NCBI GenBank assembly: GCA_949935795.1
Contig: CATLFX010000027.1
Coordinates: forward strand, 1 to 33,924
Reading direction: 5' to 3'
Source of the DNA: an uncultured Oscillospiraceae bacterium
GTDB taxonomy: Bacteria > Bacillota > Clostridia > Oscillospirales > Oscillospiraceae
DNA length: 33,924 nt
In this document: piece after piece, positions 169-28,643 of the stretch
Layout of the letters: every line of letters begins with the position of its first letter
How positions within the stretch are numbered: position 1 is the stretch's first letter
Translations under genes and position numbers: made by a program
The notes under the pieces: generated by a model
The model's input: the letters and a program-made list of their open reading frames with translations, nothing else
The model's database searches: none
Told to the model about the DNA's origin: nothing

Positions 169-193
169 CTGCTCACGACGGCTCAGCGCTTTT
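169..193 (+). repeat. Repeat family A, 3'-end remnant (A0)
   Basis: These 25 bases are identical to the 3' end of copy A1 (299-323), including GCTCACGACGGCTCAGCGCT. The distance between them is exactly 130 nt, the length of a full unit. This suggests that A1 once sat in tandem behind another copy of which only the right end survives. Confidence 0.7.
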
Positions 194-196
194 CCC

Positions 197-323
197 TTGT
201 TACGCTTCGCCTGTTCGCGACGCGCGGCTTCCCTCCGACTCGGGCTGGTCTCTGGGGCCTGCGGCCCCATCGCTCGCCCTCACTTCAGTCCATCCGCGCT
301 GCTCACGACGGCTCAGCGCTTTT
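197..323 (+). repeat. Repeat family A, full copy A1
   Basis: Matches copies at 2933-3064 and 27574-27700. The left part (TTGTTACGCTTCGCC, then CTGTTCGCGACGCGCGG) and right part (CATCCGCGCTGCTCACGACG, then GCTCAGCGCT) are conserved. The centre differs in sequence but again forms a hairpin: GGGGCC-TGC-GGCCCC inside GGGC/GCCC. It lies directly upstream of the metA promoter. Confidence 0.85.
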
Positions 324-395: not shown

Positions 396-1328
396 ATGCC
401 CATCCGTATTCCCGACTCCCTCCCCGCCACCAGCGTGCTGGAGAGCGAAAACATCTTTGTCATGACGGAGCGCCGTGCCCTTCACCAGGACATCCGCCCC
501 TTGAACCTGCTCATCCTCAACCTGATGCCCACGAAGATCGTCACCGAGACCCAGCTGCTGCGCAAGCTTTCCAATACCCCCCTCCAAGTCAATGTCCAGC
601 TGCTCCAGACCAAGAGCCACACCTCCCAGAACACGGACGTGGCCCACCTGCAATCCTTCTACACCACCTTCGACCAGGTAAAGGACCAGCAGTTTGACGG
701 CATGATTATCACCGGCGCCCCGGTGGAGAACCTGGAGTTTGAGGAGGTGGACTACTGGGACGAGCTGTGCCAGATCATGGACTGGACCCGCTCCCACGTC
801 CACTCCACCTTCCACATCTGCTGGGGGGCCCAGGCGGGGCTGTACTACCACTATGGCATTGAGAAGCGCTCCCTGCCCCACAAGCTGTCCGGCGTTTTCG
901 AGCACACCATCATCCGCAAGCGCTCCCCGCTGTTCCGGGGCTTTGACGACAGCTTCCACGCCCCCCACTCCCGCTACACCGAGGTGACTATGGAGCAGCT
1001 GCTGGAGAAGCCGGAGCTGGAGATTCTGGCTCTGTCCCACGAGGCCGGGGTGTTTGGGGTGAAGAGCTCGGACAACCGTCGGTTTTTCGTGTTCGCCCAC
1101 CCGGAGTACGACGATGACACCCTGGCCCAGGAGTATTTTCGGGACGTGAAGCGGGGGCTGGACCCGGACCTGCCCGCCCACTACTTCCCCGGTGACAACC
1201 CCAGCCTGGCCCCCATCGTCAATTGGCGCAGCTCAGGCCAGCTGCTGTACACCAACTGGCTGAATTACTACGTCTACCAGACCACCCCCTACGACCTCAA
1301 CGAGATCTCCCGGGAACCCCAGGGCTGA
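396..1328 (+). CDS. metA: Homoserine O-acetyltransferase (MetA/MetAA)
   Basis: Transfers an acetyl group from acetyl-CoA to the hydroxyl of L-homoserine, the committed step of methionine synthesis. The 310-residue length is normal for the family. The catalytic cysteine is Cys142 in HICWGAQAG, and the His235 and Glu237 of the triad are in the FAHPEYDDD segment. Residue 111 is Glu (GAPVENLEF); in this family Glu111 is known to favour acetyl-CoA, whereas other residues there allow succinyl-CoA, so I call it an acetyltransferase despite the old 'succinyltransferase' family name. A metY gene in the same window (28865-30139) uses exactly this product. The start has an AAGGAGG ribosome site. Three bases separate it from the next gene, so the two are likely co-transcribed. 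Confidence 0.96.
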
Positions 1329-2932: not shown

Positions 2933-3064
2933 TTGTCACGCTGCGCCTGTTCGCGACGCGCGGCTTCCTTCCGACTCGGGCAAAACCCGCCTCCGCTGTG
3001 CGGCGGCTGGGCTTTTGCCCTCCCTCCAGTCCATCCGCGCTGCTCACGACGGCTCCGCGCTTCT
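2933..3064 (+). repeat. Repeat family A, full copy A2
   Basis: Begins TTGTCACGCTGCGCC and ends GCTCCGCGCTTCT, 8 bp after the stop of the FAD dehydrogenase gene. The central hairpin is GGGCAAAA...TTTTGCCC with inner GCC/GGC pairs. Its right end runs without a gap into the left end of repeat B1. Together with B1 and B2 it fills most of the 434-bp gap 2925-3358, in which I see no gene. Confidence 0.85.
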
Positions 3065-3148
3065 TTGAAAAGAAAAAGCGGGGCAAAAAGAAACTCTAAA
3101 CCGCTGACGTGAAACGGGCGGATGCTGAACCGCGCCCGCCCGGCAGCC
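3061..3148 (-). repeat. Repeat family B, copy B1 (reverse orientation, stem truncated)
   Basis: In reverse orientation it has the AGTTTCTTTTTGC core, a stem CTTTTTCTTTTCAAAGAAG that is incomplete on its outer side, and the conserved upstream motif CCGCCCGGCA (3136-3145 on the plus strand) 40 nt from the core. The bases CCGCTGAC next to the core recur in B6. The outer stem arm seems to have been replaced by the end of A2. Confidence 0.7.
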
Positions 3149-3197
3149 AAGTCTTGTGGCCGACGCAGTCTTTCAGACAACCGCCCTAATGGTAACG

Positions 3198-3252
3198 AGC
3201 CAAAAGTTTCTTTTTTCGCCTCCTTTTTTCTTTACAAAGAAAAAAGGAGGGC
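3198..3252 (+). repeat. Repeat family B, copy B2
   Basis: Core AAAAGTTTCTTTTTTCG is followed by a 15-bp perfect inverted repeat: CCTCCTTTTTTCTTT (3219-3233) and AAAGAAAAAAGGAGG (3236-3250). It faces B1 as an inverted pair. The preceding TAACGAGCC resembles the sequence before B3. It lies about 105 bp upstream of the XRE gene. Confidence 0.85.
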
Positions 3253-25207: not shown

Positions 25208-26800
25208 TCACAGCGCGCGCAGCATGGCCGGGCCTTTTTTCGCCAAAACGAAGACGCATCCCGCCGCGAACGCGGCCAGCAGAACCAGCGGCAGAGCCAG
25301 CGCCGCCCAGGGCGCCAGCATGTCCCCCAGCAGGTAGAGCAGGGCGCACACCCCCACCACCGCCATGGGGACGAACATCCCCAGCACAACGGCCAGAGAC
25401 TGCTTGACCACCACGGTTTCGTTCACCGCGTCCAGCTTGGGGAAGGCCAGGCCCATCAGCATGCCAAACGCGGCGTGGCCCAGGTTGAACAGCAGTGTGA
25501 CCAGCAGCAGGGCCGCCCCCTCCCACAGGGAGAGCTGGAGGGCGGCGGCCAGGCACACCCCGGCGATCACCGTGCAGGGCACGCTGAGCAGCAGCTGAAA
25601 ACCGGTCTTGATCCACAGCAGCTCGCCCTCTCTCACGGGGGCCTCCCGGAGAATCCATAGGTACTTGCCCTCCAGGCTGATAGAGGGCGCGGCGATGGCG
25701 CACATGGACAGGCAGAAGCCCATCACCGCCGCAGCCGCCAGCGCCGTGGGGAAGTCCCCGCCTACCATGGCGAGAAGGCTTTGCAGATCCCGTCTCATCA
25801 CCAGCGCCGCCACCCCCATGGCTACCAGCATCATCAGGCCGATGCCGGAGTTCCACATATACATGGGAGTGCCGAAAAACCGCCTGGCCTCCTTGGCCAG
25901 CAGGGCCTTTTTCTGCCCCGAGGCGGCCTGGGCGGACAGCTTGTAGTCGTTCCGGGCGGACCGGGCGGCAAAGGCGGTGACCGCCTGACGGTACACTTTC
26001 CCCAGGCCAAACACTACGACGGCAAAGGGGACGATACAACAGGCGGCGAAGGCCAGCAGCAGCCCCCAGTCCCCCATAATGCCGTCCGCCATCCACAGCA
26101 TGGGGGCGGCCCAGCTCAGGGACTCCTTCACCCCGGCGGCATTGGCGGCAAGCCCCTCGATCATGCCGTTGAGGTTGAACACAAACCAGACCACCGCCGC
26201 CATGTAGAGCGCCATGACAATGTTCTGCCCCAGCGCCCCCTTGGAAACCCTGGCGGACAGGAAAGCCACCAGCGCCCCCAGCAGCACGGACAGCGCCGTA
26301 TCCAGCAGAGGCAGGGCGAACACCGCCACAATGAGCCGCACCCAGAACAGCAGGCTGTGCCCCACGCCGCTCTGGGTCATAAAGGCGCACACCGCCCCGG
26401 CGGGGGCCAGCACGAAGAAGGAGAACAGCAGGTTCTCCAGGTAGATGGCCGACACCCGGCTGGCCATCAGCGCAGTGGTGGACACGGGCATGGACAGCAG
26501 CAGGTCGTTGTCCTTGCCGCCGAACACCACCCCCTTGACGGCGAAGGTGGTGAACATCAGGCCGCCCACCAGCGCCCCCATGCCCATGAAGATGAACACC
26601 AGCACCTCCATGTGGACGGGAGCCAGAACCTGCATCAGCATGGAGCTGTACAGCCCGGACATGTACAGACCCAAAAAGGCAATGAGCAGCATAGCCCCCG
26701 CGCCGGTGGCCGCTTTTTTACGGCTGTTTCCCCGGCTGTTGGTGGAGGACAGCAGCATGGATTTTACACTGACCTTCAACAGGGCAAAGAACTTTTTCAT
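25208..26800 (-). CDS. ABC transporter permease
   Basis: A 530-residue membrane protein with about 12 hydrophobic segments. It starts MKKFFALLKVSVKSML, followed by a Ser/Arg-rich stretch and TM1 at about 35-55. A VFGGKDNDLLLSMPVS motif near residue 93 is characteristic of the exporter-type ABC-2 / EcsB-like permeases of Firmicutes. The substrate is unknown. The ATG (26800-26798) overlaps the stop of the ATPase gene (ATGA), so the two are coupled. The GGAG ribosome site is modest, in keeping with coupling. A longer reading frame upstream is antisense overlap and not used. Confidence 0.88.
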   Translation of the reverse strand: MKKFFALLKVSVKSMLLSSTNSRGNSRKKAATGAGAMLLIAFLGLYMSGLYSSMLMQVLAPVHMEVLVFIFMGMGALVGGLMFTTFAVKGVVFGGKDNDLLLSMPVSTTALMASRVSAIYLENLLFSFFVLAPAGAVCAFMTQSGVGHSLLFWVRLIVAVFALPLLDTALSVLLGALVAFLSARVSKGALGQNIVMALYMAAVVWFVFNLNGMIEGLAANAAGVKESLSWAAPMLWMADGIMGDWGLLLAFAACCIVPFAVVVFGLGKVYRQAVTAFAARSARNDYKLSAQAASGQKKALLAKEARRFFGTPMYMWNSGIGLMMLVAMGVAALVMRRDLQSLLAMVGGDFPTALAAAAVMGFCLSMCAIAAPSISLEGKYLWILREAPVREGELLWIKTGFQLLLSVPCTVIAGVCLAAALQLSLWEGAALLLVTLLFNLGHAAFGMLMGLAFPKLDAVNETVVVKQSLAVVLGMFVPMAVVGVCALLYLLGDMLAPWAALALPLVLLAAFAAGCVFVLAKKGPAMLRAL

Positions 26801-27510
26801 TTGTCTCCCTCCAGCTCCAGGAACACGTCCTCCAGGGAGGAGTCGCCCACCAGCTGTTCGGTGGGGCCGCTTTTCACCAGCCGCCCGTCCTTGATGATGG
26901 CGATCTGGTGGCACAGCTTCTCCGCCACCTCCAGCACGTGGGTGGAGAAAAACACCGCCGAGCCGCCCTGGCAAAGCTCCGCCAGGTATCCCTTCATCAG
27001 GTGGGAGGCGGAGGGGTCCAGCCCCACGAAGGGCTCGTCCAGGATCAGCAGTTTCGGGCGGCGGATGAAGGCCGAGATGAGGGCCAGCTTCTGCCGCATC
27101 CCGTGGGAGTAGCTGCCGATGGGTGAACCCAGGCTGCCCGTCAGCTCAAAGGCATCGCCGAATCTGCCGATGTCCTTTGTACGCCGGTCCGCCGGGATGT
27201 CGTACAAATCGGCGATAAAATTCAGGTAGTCGATGCCCTTCATGAACTCGTACAGGTCCGGGTTGTCGGGCAGGAAGGCGGTGACCCGCTTGGCCCCCAC
27301 CGGGTCCTTTTTGATGTCGCGGCCGTCGATGGTGATGGTCCCTTCGGTGAAGTCCATCACCCCCGCCACCGCCCGCAGGGTGGTGGTCTTGCCCGCCCCG
27401 TTGTGGCCGATGAAGCCGTAGATCTCACCGGGGCGCACGTGGAGGGTCAGGTCGTCCACCGCCTTCTTGCCGCCGGGATAGGTCTTGGAATAGTGTTCAA
27501 TGCGAAGCAT
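26797..27510 (-). CDS. ABC transporter ATP-binding protein
   Basis: A 237-residue ATPase. Walker A is GHNGAGKTTT (about 38-47), the Q-loop region is TAFLPDNPDLYE, the signature is SYSHGMRQKLALI, Walker B is LLILDEPFVGLD, and the switch histidine is in STHVLEVAE. The class is that of two-component exporters (CcmA / EcsA-like). It powers the permease encoded immediately downstream. I chose ATG 27510, whose AAAGGAGAG site is well placed, over an in-frame ATG eight codons earlier. Upstream lies a 9-nt direct repeat and then repeat copy A3. Confidence 0.93.
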   Translation of the reverse strand: MLRIEHYSKTYPGGKKAVDDLTLHVRPGEIYGFIGHNGAGKTTTLRAVAGVMDFTEGTITIDGRDIKKDPVGAKRVTAFLPDNPDLYEFMKGIDYLNFIADLYDIPADRRTKDIGRFGDAFELTGSLGSPIGSYSHGMRQKLALISAFIRRPKLLILDEPFVGLDPSASHLMKGYLAELCQGGSAVFFSTHVLEVAEKLCHQIAIIKDGRLVKSGPTEQLVGDSSLEDVFLELEGDK

Positions 27511-27546
27511 ATTGGTCTCTCCTTTACAGCACAAATAGGTCTTATT

Positions 27547-27573: not shown

Positions 27574-27700
27574 TTGTCACGCTTCGCCTGTTCGCGACGT
27601 GCGGCTTCGCTCCGTCTCGGGCAAACCCCATCCCCACTTTGCGGGTCTGGGTTTGCCCTCGCTCCGTTCCATCCGCACTGCTCACGACGGCTCAGCGCTT
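27574..27700 (+). repeat. Repeat family A, full copy A3
   Basis: Starts TTGTCACGCTTCGCC and ends GCTCAGCGCTT, directly touching the stop codon of the YbjQ gene. The centre is a perfect 10-bp stem GGGCAAACCC / GGGTTTGCCC. The outer stem reads GTGCGG / CCGCAC where the other copies have GCGCGG / CCGCGC, a compensated change. Confidence 0.85.
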
Positions 27701-28012
27701 CTACTTATACCGCACCGCGGTGCCGTACACGGTGATCTCCGCCGCCCCCTGCATGATGGACGCGGAGGCGTAGCGGATGTTCACCACCGCGTCCGCCCCC
27801 AAAGCCTCCGCCTCGTCCACCATCCGCTTGGTGGCCAGCTGGCGGGCCTCGGTGAGCATATCGGTATAGCTCTCAATCTCGCCGCCCACAAAGGTGTTCA
27901 TGAACGCCATAAAGTCCTTGCCAAAGCTCTTGCACTGGACCACCGAGCCTTTTACAATGGACAGCGCCTCGATCTCCCGGCCAGGGACATGGTCAATATT
28001 GAGCAGCAGCAT
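27701..28012 (-). CDS. YbjQ/UPF0145 family protein
   Basis: A 103-residue soluble protein of the YbjQ (UPF0145, 'heavy-metal-binding') family; its function is not established. Family features are IEALSIVKGSVVQCKSFGKD, GGEIESYTDMLTEARQLA, and LGADAVVNIRYASASIMQGA. Homologues assemble as rings of five. The ATG at 28012 overlaps the end of the merR gene by 20 bp and has GAGG upstream, so it is translated with the regulator and is probably its target or partner. The stop codon touches repeat A3. Confidence 0.88.
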   Translation of the reverse strand: MLLLNIDHVPGREIEALSIVKGSVVQCKSFGKDFMAFMNTFVGGEIESYTDMLTEARQLATKRMVDEAEALGADAVVNIRYASASIMQGAAEITVYGTAVRYK

Positions 28013-28643
28013 CTTCCTCGCCTCCCCTGATCTGCTTGATGCGCCGGTACAGCGCCGCCAGCACGCCGACGATGACCACCACCGGGATGGCCGCGATGGC
28101 GATGACAATACCGACAGGCGGCGCCTCCTCCGGCGCGGTGGTGAAGCCCCAGACGATGAGGGCTAAAAACGCCGCCATCATCACCAGCACCACGACAGCC
28201 GCCCCCACGGGGCTGACGTACCGGGTCAATTTGTCCTGTTTTCCCACGTTCATAAATTTTGTGCCCTCCTGTTCCTGCCGCTCCATGGATGCCAGCACCC
28301 CGTCGGCGTCCAGGCTGTCCAGCTGGCTTCTGCTCTCCCGGATCTGGGCGCACACGCCCTGGGCCGCCGCCAGATTGGCCTGCCTGCGCTCCAGCTGGAT
28401 GATGTGCCGCCCCATGGCGTCCTCCAGGGTCAGCGACCCGGATTTGAGGCGCAGGATCTCCTCAATGGGCACGTCCAGCATCCGCAGCAGCTTGATTTTT
28501 TTCAGCCACACCACGTCGGCGTCGCTGTAGTCCCGGTAGCCGTTTTCGTTGTTGCGCCCGGGAGTGAGCAGCCCCTCCTTTTCATAGAAGCGGATATTGC
28601 CCTTGGTGATGCCCACCAGCTGCTCCACCTGATTGATCTTCAT
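27993..28643 (-). CDS. MerR-family regulator with a membrane anchor
   Basis: A 216-residue protein. Residues 1-70 form the MerR winged helix (KINQVEQLVGITKGNIRFYE, then GYRDYSDADVVWLKKI). A coiled coil for dimer formation spans about 75-120. Two hydrophobic segments follow (about 138-161 and 172-193), with a basic end. Classic MerR proteins are soluble, so the membrane part is unusual and suggests response to an envelope signal. I chose ATG 28643, preceded by GGAGGGAGG. The promoter at 28668-28698 has a 19-bp spacer with a dyad, the known hallmark of MerR control, so it probably regulates itself and YbjQ. Confidence 0.9.
   Translation of the reverse strand: MKINQVEQLVGITKGNIRFYEKEGLLTPGRNNENGYRDYSDADVVWLKKIKLLRMLDVPIEEILRLKSGSLTLEDAMGRHIIQLERRQANLAAAQGVCAQIRESRSQLDSLDADGVLASMERQEQEGTKFMNVGKQDKLTRYVSPVGAAVVVLVMMAAFLALIVWGFTTAPEEAPPVGIVIAIAAIPVVVIVGVLAALYRRIKQIRGGEEDAAAQY

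Follow-up and report, generated by a model that had tools for sequence, protein, structure and literature searches.

Putative REP-like mobile repeats of about 130 nt at gene 3′ ends in Oscillospiraceae

The window analyzed in this study is the whole stretch of 33,924 nucleotides of contig CATLFX010000027.1 (assembly GCA_949935795.1) from an uncultured Oscillospiraceae bacterium. It contains three copies of an intergenic repeat that probably (we put the chance at roughly 60%) represents a new family of non-autonomous, REP-like mobile repeats of about 130 nt, which insert at gene 3′ ends in Oscillospiraceae and act in mRNA. This family of structured repeats from gut bacteria is large and, as far as searched, undescribed, with copies that sit within ribosomal-protein, RNA polymerase and tRNA-synthetase operons. 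Beyond the original prediction of a dispersed element with covarying stems, we report its placement at gene ends, its sense bias, its arrays, its insertion polymorphism and its distribution across the family.

The three full copies and the remnant that had been predicted are all present at the given places. We refer to the window minus strand as the sense strand of the element, on which its consensus starts with AGAAGCG (left end) and finishes with CGTGACAA (right end). Copy A1 (197..323, minus strand) has a central hairpin of the GGGGCC type and ends that are slightly off this consensus (AAAAGCG on the left, CGTAACAA on the right). It is antisense to metA (396..1328, plus strand), which adjoins it on the opposite strand with a start codon 72 nt from A1. 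The remnant (169..193, minus strand) is a truncated, 25-nt copy of the left end of A1 itself, located exactly 3 nt past the right end of A1 (spacer 194-196), an arrangement that recurs across the genus. Copy A2 (2933..3064, minus strand) is antisense to a plus-strand gene (1332-2924), and its right end lies 8 nt past the stop codon of this gene. Copy A3 (27574..27702, minus strand) is sense to both neighbors; while the coordinates of A1 and A2 stand as predicted, A3 reaches two bases beyond the end initially set at 27700. These first two bases of A3, AG at 27702-27701, finish the TAG stop codon of the upstream gene (27701..28030, minus strand), which ends within the element. The best NCBIfam matches of this gene, PRK03732 and a putative heavy metal-binding protein, are below the curated cut-offs, and ‘YbjQ-like’ is used as a working label. 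The gene downstream of A3 (26797..27534, minus strand) encodes a putative ABC transporter ATP-binding protein, as judged by eye from its motifs. Among the window copies, the main placement pattern described below fits A3 alone, A1 and A2 being antisense to their neighbors.

A second repeat family with a CTTTTTCTTGAAAGAAAAAG-like palindrome was noted by eye in the window (approximately 3062-3250) and in pheS/pheT spacers (L350, L351, L353, L354, L357, and L359). Several element copies in the window’s own genome abut this repeat or sit within it, and in G022 (L371) an element is nested inside it.

The own genome (70% complete) holds 45 pieces found by BLAST with A3 (E ≤ 1) and at least 52 matches to a covariance model built from 49 copies (E ≤ 1e-3), hence the three window copies are not a chance finding. 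The covariance search of the genome and of related Oscillospiraceae suggested along with the original prediction thus recovered many copies, including at least 131 in G006, a genome of the same genus (both model counts derive from the best 150 candidates scored per genome and are possibly lower bounds). Within the genus, 29 out of 42 genomes match in a DNA search at E ≤ 1e-3. The distribution beyond the genus is patchy, with model matches in 61 out of 400 genomes (18 out of 106 genera) of a family sample, in 13 out of 394 genomes of an order sample, all 13 from Oscillospiraceae, and in two out of 391 genomes of a class sample, both from the own genus; these large searches used stricter filters, by which weak matches are lost. 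The plasmid, phage and E. coli collections gave zero matches to the element. One IMG/VR contig (L227:7380-7550), labelled viral but by eye resembling a bacterial chromosome, carries a full copy followed by a trailing left end. The covariance models of Rfam (release 15) yielded no match in the window at the gathering cut-off, none around A3 at E ≤ 1, none at E ≤ 5 for one G006 array, and a T-box leader alone in eight G006 loci. The early view that no named family has these motifs therefore holds as far as tested, and no such family was found in the titles and abstract openings retrieved by searches of the open-licence literature either.

The sampled copies are mostly located at gene ends and in sense with the surrounding genes. 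With the element masked in the gene calls, 91 usable loci were obtained from 166 arrays (18 duplicates, 27 arrays without a complete left end and 30 with short flanks were left out). A check for copies inside coding genes had been proposed at the outset, and none of the 91 loci falls within a called gene. The upstream gene is sense in 78 and antisense in 13 of these genus loci; taking both neighbors into account, 63 are sense, nine antisense, 15 convergent and four divergent. For 59 of the 78 loci with a sense upstream gene, the stop codon of that gene ends anywhere from 22 nt within the element to 9 nt ahead of it, meaning that the element often provides the stop codon. For the remaining 19, the stop codon is found 45 nt inside the element in one case, and the element starts 25-1113 nt past the stop codon in 18.

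A simpler test on 102 loci (out of 179 arrays, after removal of 29 duplicates, of 32 arrays whose left end is incomplete and of 16 with short flanks) gave upstream coding sequence in sense at 62, in antisense at six and none at 34 loci, and downstream coding sequence in sense at 44, in antisense at 10 and none at 48. The underlying coding-strand scoring put five out of five known window stretches on the correct strand. A sense stop codon occurs 0-9 nt upstream of the element in 22 of the 102 loci, versus 2.8% expected for a random intergenic position and orientation, and the stop codon lies within the element in 39 more. The loci were drawn from search matches, many of them in element-rich genomes (45 of the 128 units come from G006), so these proportions are not those of a random sample. 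Other genera were represented by 27 out of 29 elements (two from the own genus were left out), scored with the codon statistics of the genus: upstream coding sequence is sense for 15, antisense for three and absent for nine, and in 13 of the 15 sense cases the stop codon lies at most 17 nt from the first base of the element. The median gap between genes is 55 nt, and selection acting on such compact genomes, together with the stop codons offered by the left end, could account for part of the placement at gene ends instead of targeting.

Copies were found in the infA/rpmJ, rpoA/rplQ and pheS/pheT spacers and upstream of a pgk-like gene. Operons of the infA-rpmJ, rpoA-rplQ and pheS-pheT type are co-transcribed. 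Because of their position inside such conserved operons, from which we deduce cotranscription, the copies found there very likely belong to mRNA.

The stem switch from GCGCGG/CCGCGC to GTGCGG/CCGCAC and the varied central hairpins on which the original prediction was built are real in the sequence. The switched stem had been taken for the outer one, but it is itself enclosed by a basal stem that contains a tandem G-A. Compared to shuffled sequences, the sense strand has RNA folding z-scores of -4.0 (A1), -3.2 (A2) and -5.4 (A3), with weaker values of -1.8, -1.9 and -2.8, respectively, on the plus strand. Changes on both sides of a pair with pairing kept are seen for 22 out of 35 pairs in an alignment of 49 genus sequences, retained from 77 copies of 115-142 nt after type-2 stems, near repeats and others had been dropped by hand. 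This alignment contains 158 double-change cells, versus 39.7 ± 5 after shuffling of the 3′ letters and no more than 48 after sliding of the partners. Outside the genus (35 matches from 26 loci in 11 genera), 29 out of 35 pairs have changes on both sides, with 190 cells versus 52 ± 5, counts that lean towards structure as these sequences were both found by and aligned to the covariance model. A free alignment of 26 of these 35 sequences with its own predicted structure still gives 13 out of 29 pairs and 54 cells, versus 12 ± 3 (shuffled) and at most 15 (slid). The covariation is thus far above the shuffle and slide controls, and selection for structure is supported in the genus and separately in 11 other genera. 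Conserved purine-rich internal loops are present beside the covarying stems, and three units with other stem sequences share the fold outline (z-scores of -4.4, -5.5, and -6.7). Conserved structure is by itself no proof of a benefit to the host.

The basal pair is G-U in all sequences of the three alignments (49/49 in the genus, 35/35 in other genera, 26/26 in the free alignment). This pair would become A-C on the opposite strand, which identifies the minus strand as the folded strand. In line with this, 127 out of 127 units fold more stably on the sense strand than on the complementary one. Arms with 12 or more pairs form in 120 of the 127 units with RNA energies versus 89 with DNA energies, although the long hairpin also forms with DNA energies on the sense strand of all three window copies. 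RNA appears favored over single-stranded DNA as the folded molecule in these energy models, which narrows the initial ‘RNA or single-stranded DNA’ to one strand and a favored molecule without settling the choice. In two units (L261:4290-4423 and L269:4741-4869), the left arm of one stem type was observed by eye together with the right arm of another; their lower stem should no longer pair, and recombination in the core is possible.

Many copies are followed by the start of another. A left-end copy trails 26 out of 83 copies (score of at least 24), compared to one out of 83 for shuffled downstream sequence. Among 128 distinct full units, 74 have a left-end-like start within 24 nt downstream (a few of these being chance matches to a short pattern), and in 61 of them the spacer measures exactly 3 nt. 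For 20 of the 74, the spacer plus the next base is identical to the sequence that immediately precedes the unit. When the limit is set at 10 nt, 64 units with a trailing left end remain, of which 59 have the 3-nt spacer; the ungapped length of the trailing left end is at least 43 nt in 14, which corresponds to a full next unit, whereas 26 have 14-42 nt and the other 24 less. Nine out of ten trailing copies of 24-42 nt resemble their own unit more than the median unit, so that most look like local copies. Genome G006 has 69 model matches within 290 kb, many of them in arrays whose units differ in stems and cores. The joint triplet is constant in some of these arrays and not in others, and in the arrays examined the successive units have no genes between them. 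Tandem units are also found in other genera. The joint may be the product of an enzyme, of template switching at the hairpin or of unequal recombination. Folding of the joint as a hairpin of its own, formed by a right end and the next left end, was considered and rejected (unstable with DNA energies; z-score of +1.25 in the one case folded).

Several variant units were encountered. Another structured unit, about 190 nt long, has four hairpins but shares its left end with the element; it is present at 11 places in G006 (L261:10040-10230 and ten similar places in L259, L260, L261, L262, L264, L267, L269, L271, and L275), interspersed with the element in arrays. Its z-scores are -5.8 and -6.7 on its two strands, and an Rfam search gave no matches to it. 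A frame-only form, in which the ends are kept and the core is missing (about 39 nt), occurs in the own genome (L037, L038, L041, L044, and L046); the corresponding pattern matches 15 out of 42 genus genomes, with many of the G006 matches being a stem variant of the full unit. At a site where G039 (L170) carries a full element, a form of 32 nt is present in G037 (L169). In addition, an extra module GGCGCTGTGTGCC...CCAGCGCC is nested in some element copies (L032, L033, L034, and L035).

We propose that the unit would insert at gene 3′ ends, mostly in sense and at or just within the stop codon, and would be read out in mRNA as one long hairpin just past the stop codon and, in operons, ahead of the next start codon. 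By analogy with REPs, the hairpin would most likely work in the 3′-UTR or between cistrons, marking the end of a translated unit, and might shield or tune the upstream mRNA and uncouple the expression of neighboring genes. Copies would multiply through an activity acting in trans, and local copying might join a right end to a new left end via the 3-nt spacer, leaving either a tandem array or a truncated left end.

A possible though less favored explanation is that the hairpin is kept as the single-stranded DNA substrate, on the sense strand, of a transposase or recombinase of the REP/RAYT or IS200/IS605 type, the position in mRNA being a tolerated insertion. The strand-specific fold, the well-defined ends, the mostly fixed 3-nt spacer of the tandem joints and the hairpin that forms with DNA energies in the window copies are all consistent with it, whereas the less frequent pairing of the arms with DNA energies is not. 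The enzyme search also argues against it. The Y1 transposase (PF01797) was not found in the own genome, nor in any of the ten genus genomes with at least 20 DNA matches (drafts that are 70-95% complete, in each of which the gene may have been missed). It is present in eight out of 29 genus genomes with a DNA match and in eight out of 13 without one, although one of these 13, G005, does have covariance-model matches. RAYT/Y1, the sole enzyme family searched, was therefore rejected as mobilizer as far as PF01797 is concerned, given its absence from element-rich genus genomes.

A more speculative version, which we consider unlikely, takes the units as gene-less hairpin cassettes that an undescribed enzyme puts at gene ends and that are chained by a precise joint, in which three bases separate a right end from a left end. 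The left end would be common to different cassettes, among them the four-hairpin unit, and gene 3′ ends would act as docking sites for exchangeable RNA modules, in a non-coding counterpart of the integron.

Returning to the proposed family of REP-like repeats, mobility is suggested by orthologous sites that lack the element, which indicate that it was inserted where it is present. The A3 site between the ybjQ-like and ABC transporter genes is occupied both in the window and in G024 (L051), whereas the element is absent in L080, L081, and L082; L083 and L084 have a few bases resembling its right end. At a second gene pair, the element is found in three out of 18 readable genomes (30 fetched), with the common stem in G000 and another stem type between unchanged ends in G036 and G007. 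In four relatives (G008, G009, G013, and G023), TAA runs straight into GGAGG. The infA/rpmJ spacer is filled in the own genome and in four of the 30 genomes fetched for it; the right borders vary by a few bases. The pheS/pheT spacer of 28 readable genomes holds the element in five, another repeat in six, other long spacers in three and a short spacer in 14. A different insert of about 150 nt was observed in infA/rpmJ of L320, L321, L324, L325, L326, and L330, between a GGGGCCTTGCC-like and a GGGGCCAT motif; these motifs are near each other where the infA/rpmJ spacer is short.

Sites with and without the element, together with its short, non-coding, dispersed and imperfectly palindromic nature, would also suit a classical MITE, moved by a DDE transposase and bounded by terminal inverted repeats and a fixed target-site duplication. 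We regard this as very unlikely: the outermost bases (AGAA at one end, GACAA at the other) do not form an inverted repeat, the stem type differs between genomes at one orthologous site while both ends are kept, and no constant duplication was found across the compared orthologous sites listed, the clearest case being the clean infA/rpmJ pair of G008 versus G023, with GTAA at both sides, and others having none.

It is highly improbable that the element is a host cis-regulatory RNA, be it a riboswitch, an attenuator or a terminator, with copies at many genes: conserved purine-rich loops and covarying stems would fit such an RNA, but Rfam gave no match, the identified neighboring genes are unrelated (metA, infA, rpoA, pheS, and others), the element follows stop codons and has by eye no T-run after its right end, and its presence varies between close relatives. 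Equally hard to credit are integron-like cassette arrays of attC-type sites moved by a site-specific integrase, since the R′ (GTTRRRY) and R′′ (RYYYAAC) boxes of attC sites occur in zero and one of 128 units and no genes lie between the units of the arrays examined, in spite of imperfect single-strand hairpins of similar length, in sense after stop codons, and arrays with a mostly constant joint.

The family thus raises the questions of what moves these hairpins and whether the core genes adjacent to them change in expression. The latter is testable, as filled and empty sites are available in closely related operons.

Compared to known systems, the element is most akin to REPs and BIMEs, which PMC3733652 describes as non-coding imperfect palindromes that are mostly extragenic and near the 3′ end of upstream genes; according to the same source, the ends of GTAG REPs often provide the stop codon. 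The element, too, is extragenic and adjacent to gene 3′ ends (0/91 within genes, 59/78 at the stop codon). It differs from REPs in its size of about 130 nt versus 20-40 nt, in its tag (GTAG/CGTC starts none of 128 units, and GTAG lies within 6 nt upstream or in the first 4 nt of two) and in the lack of a RAYT in element-rich genus genomes, in addition to its sense bias (63:9), fixed-joint arrays and exchangeable stems. By size, tag and transposase it is not a REP, and it dissociates placement at gene ends and folding into a hairpin from RAYT/Y1, the machinery by which REPs are explained. ERIC and RU-1 are palindromic repeats, and the element shares their length class and intergenic location, while their hosts are different and the element has arrays and truncated left ends; a blastn search of 5,426 E. 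coli genomes with A3 (E ≤ 0.01) was negative. RU-1 is 127 bp long according to PMC2759123. PMC3049150 presents the pneumococcal BOX, RUP and SPRITE elements as structured small repeats that are expected to affect co-transcribed genes and are viewed as parasitic. The element is set apart from them, by their description, through its host and through its repetition as a whole unit, head to tail, with a 3-nt joint. With MITEs it has in common that it is non-autonomous, and not the matching outermost ends or fixed duplication. As far as searched, we class the element as a new family of a known, REP-like kind, with arrays and exchangeable stems as its unusual features.
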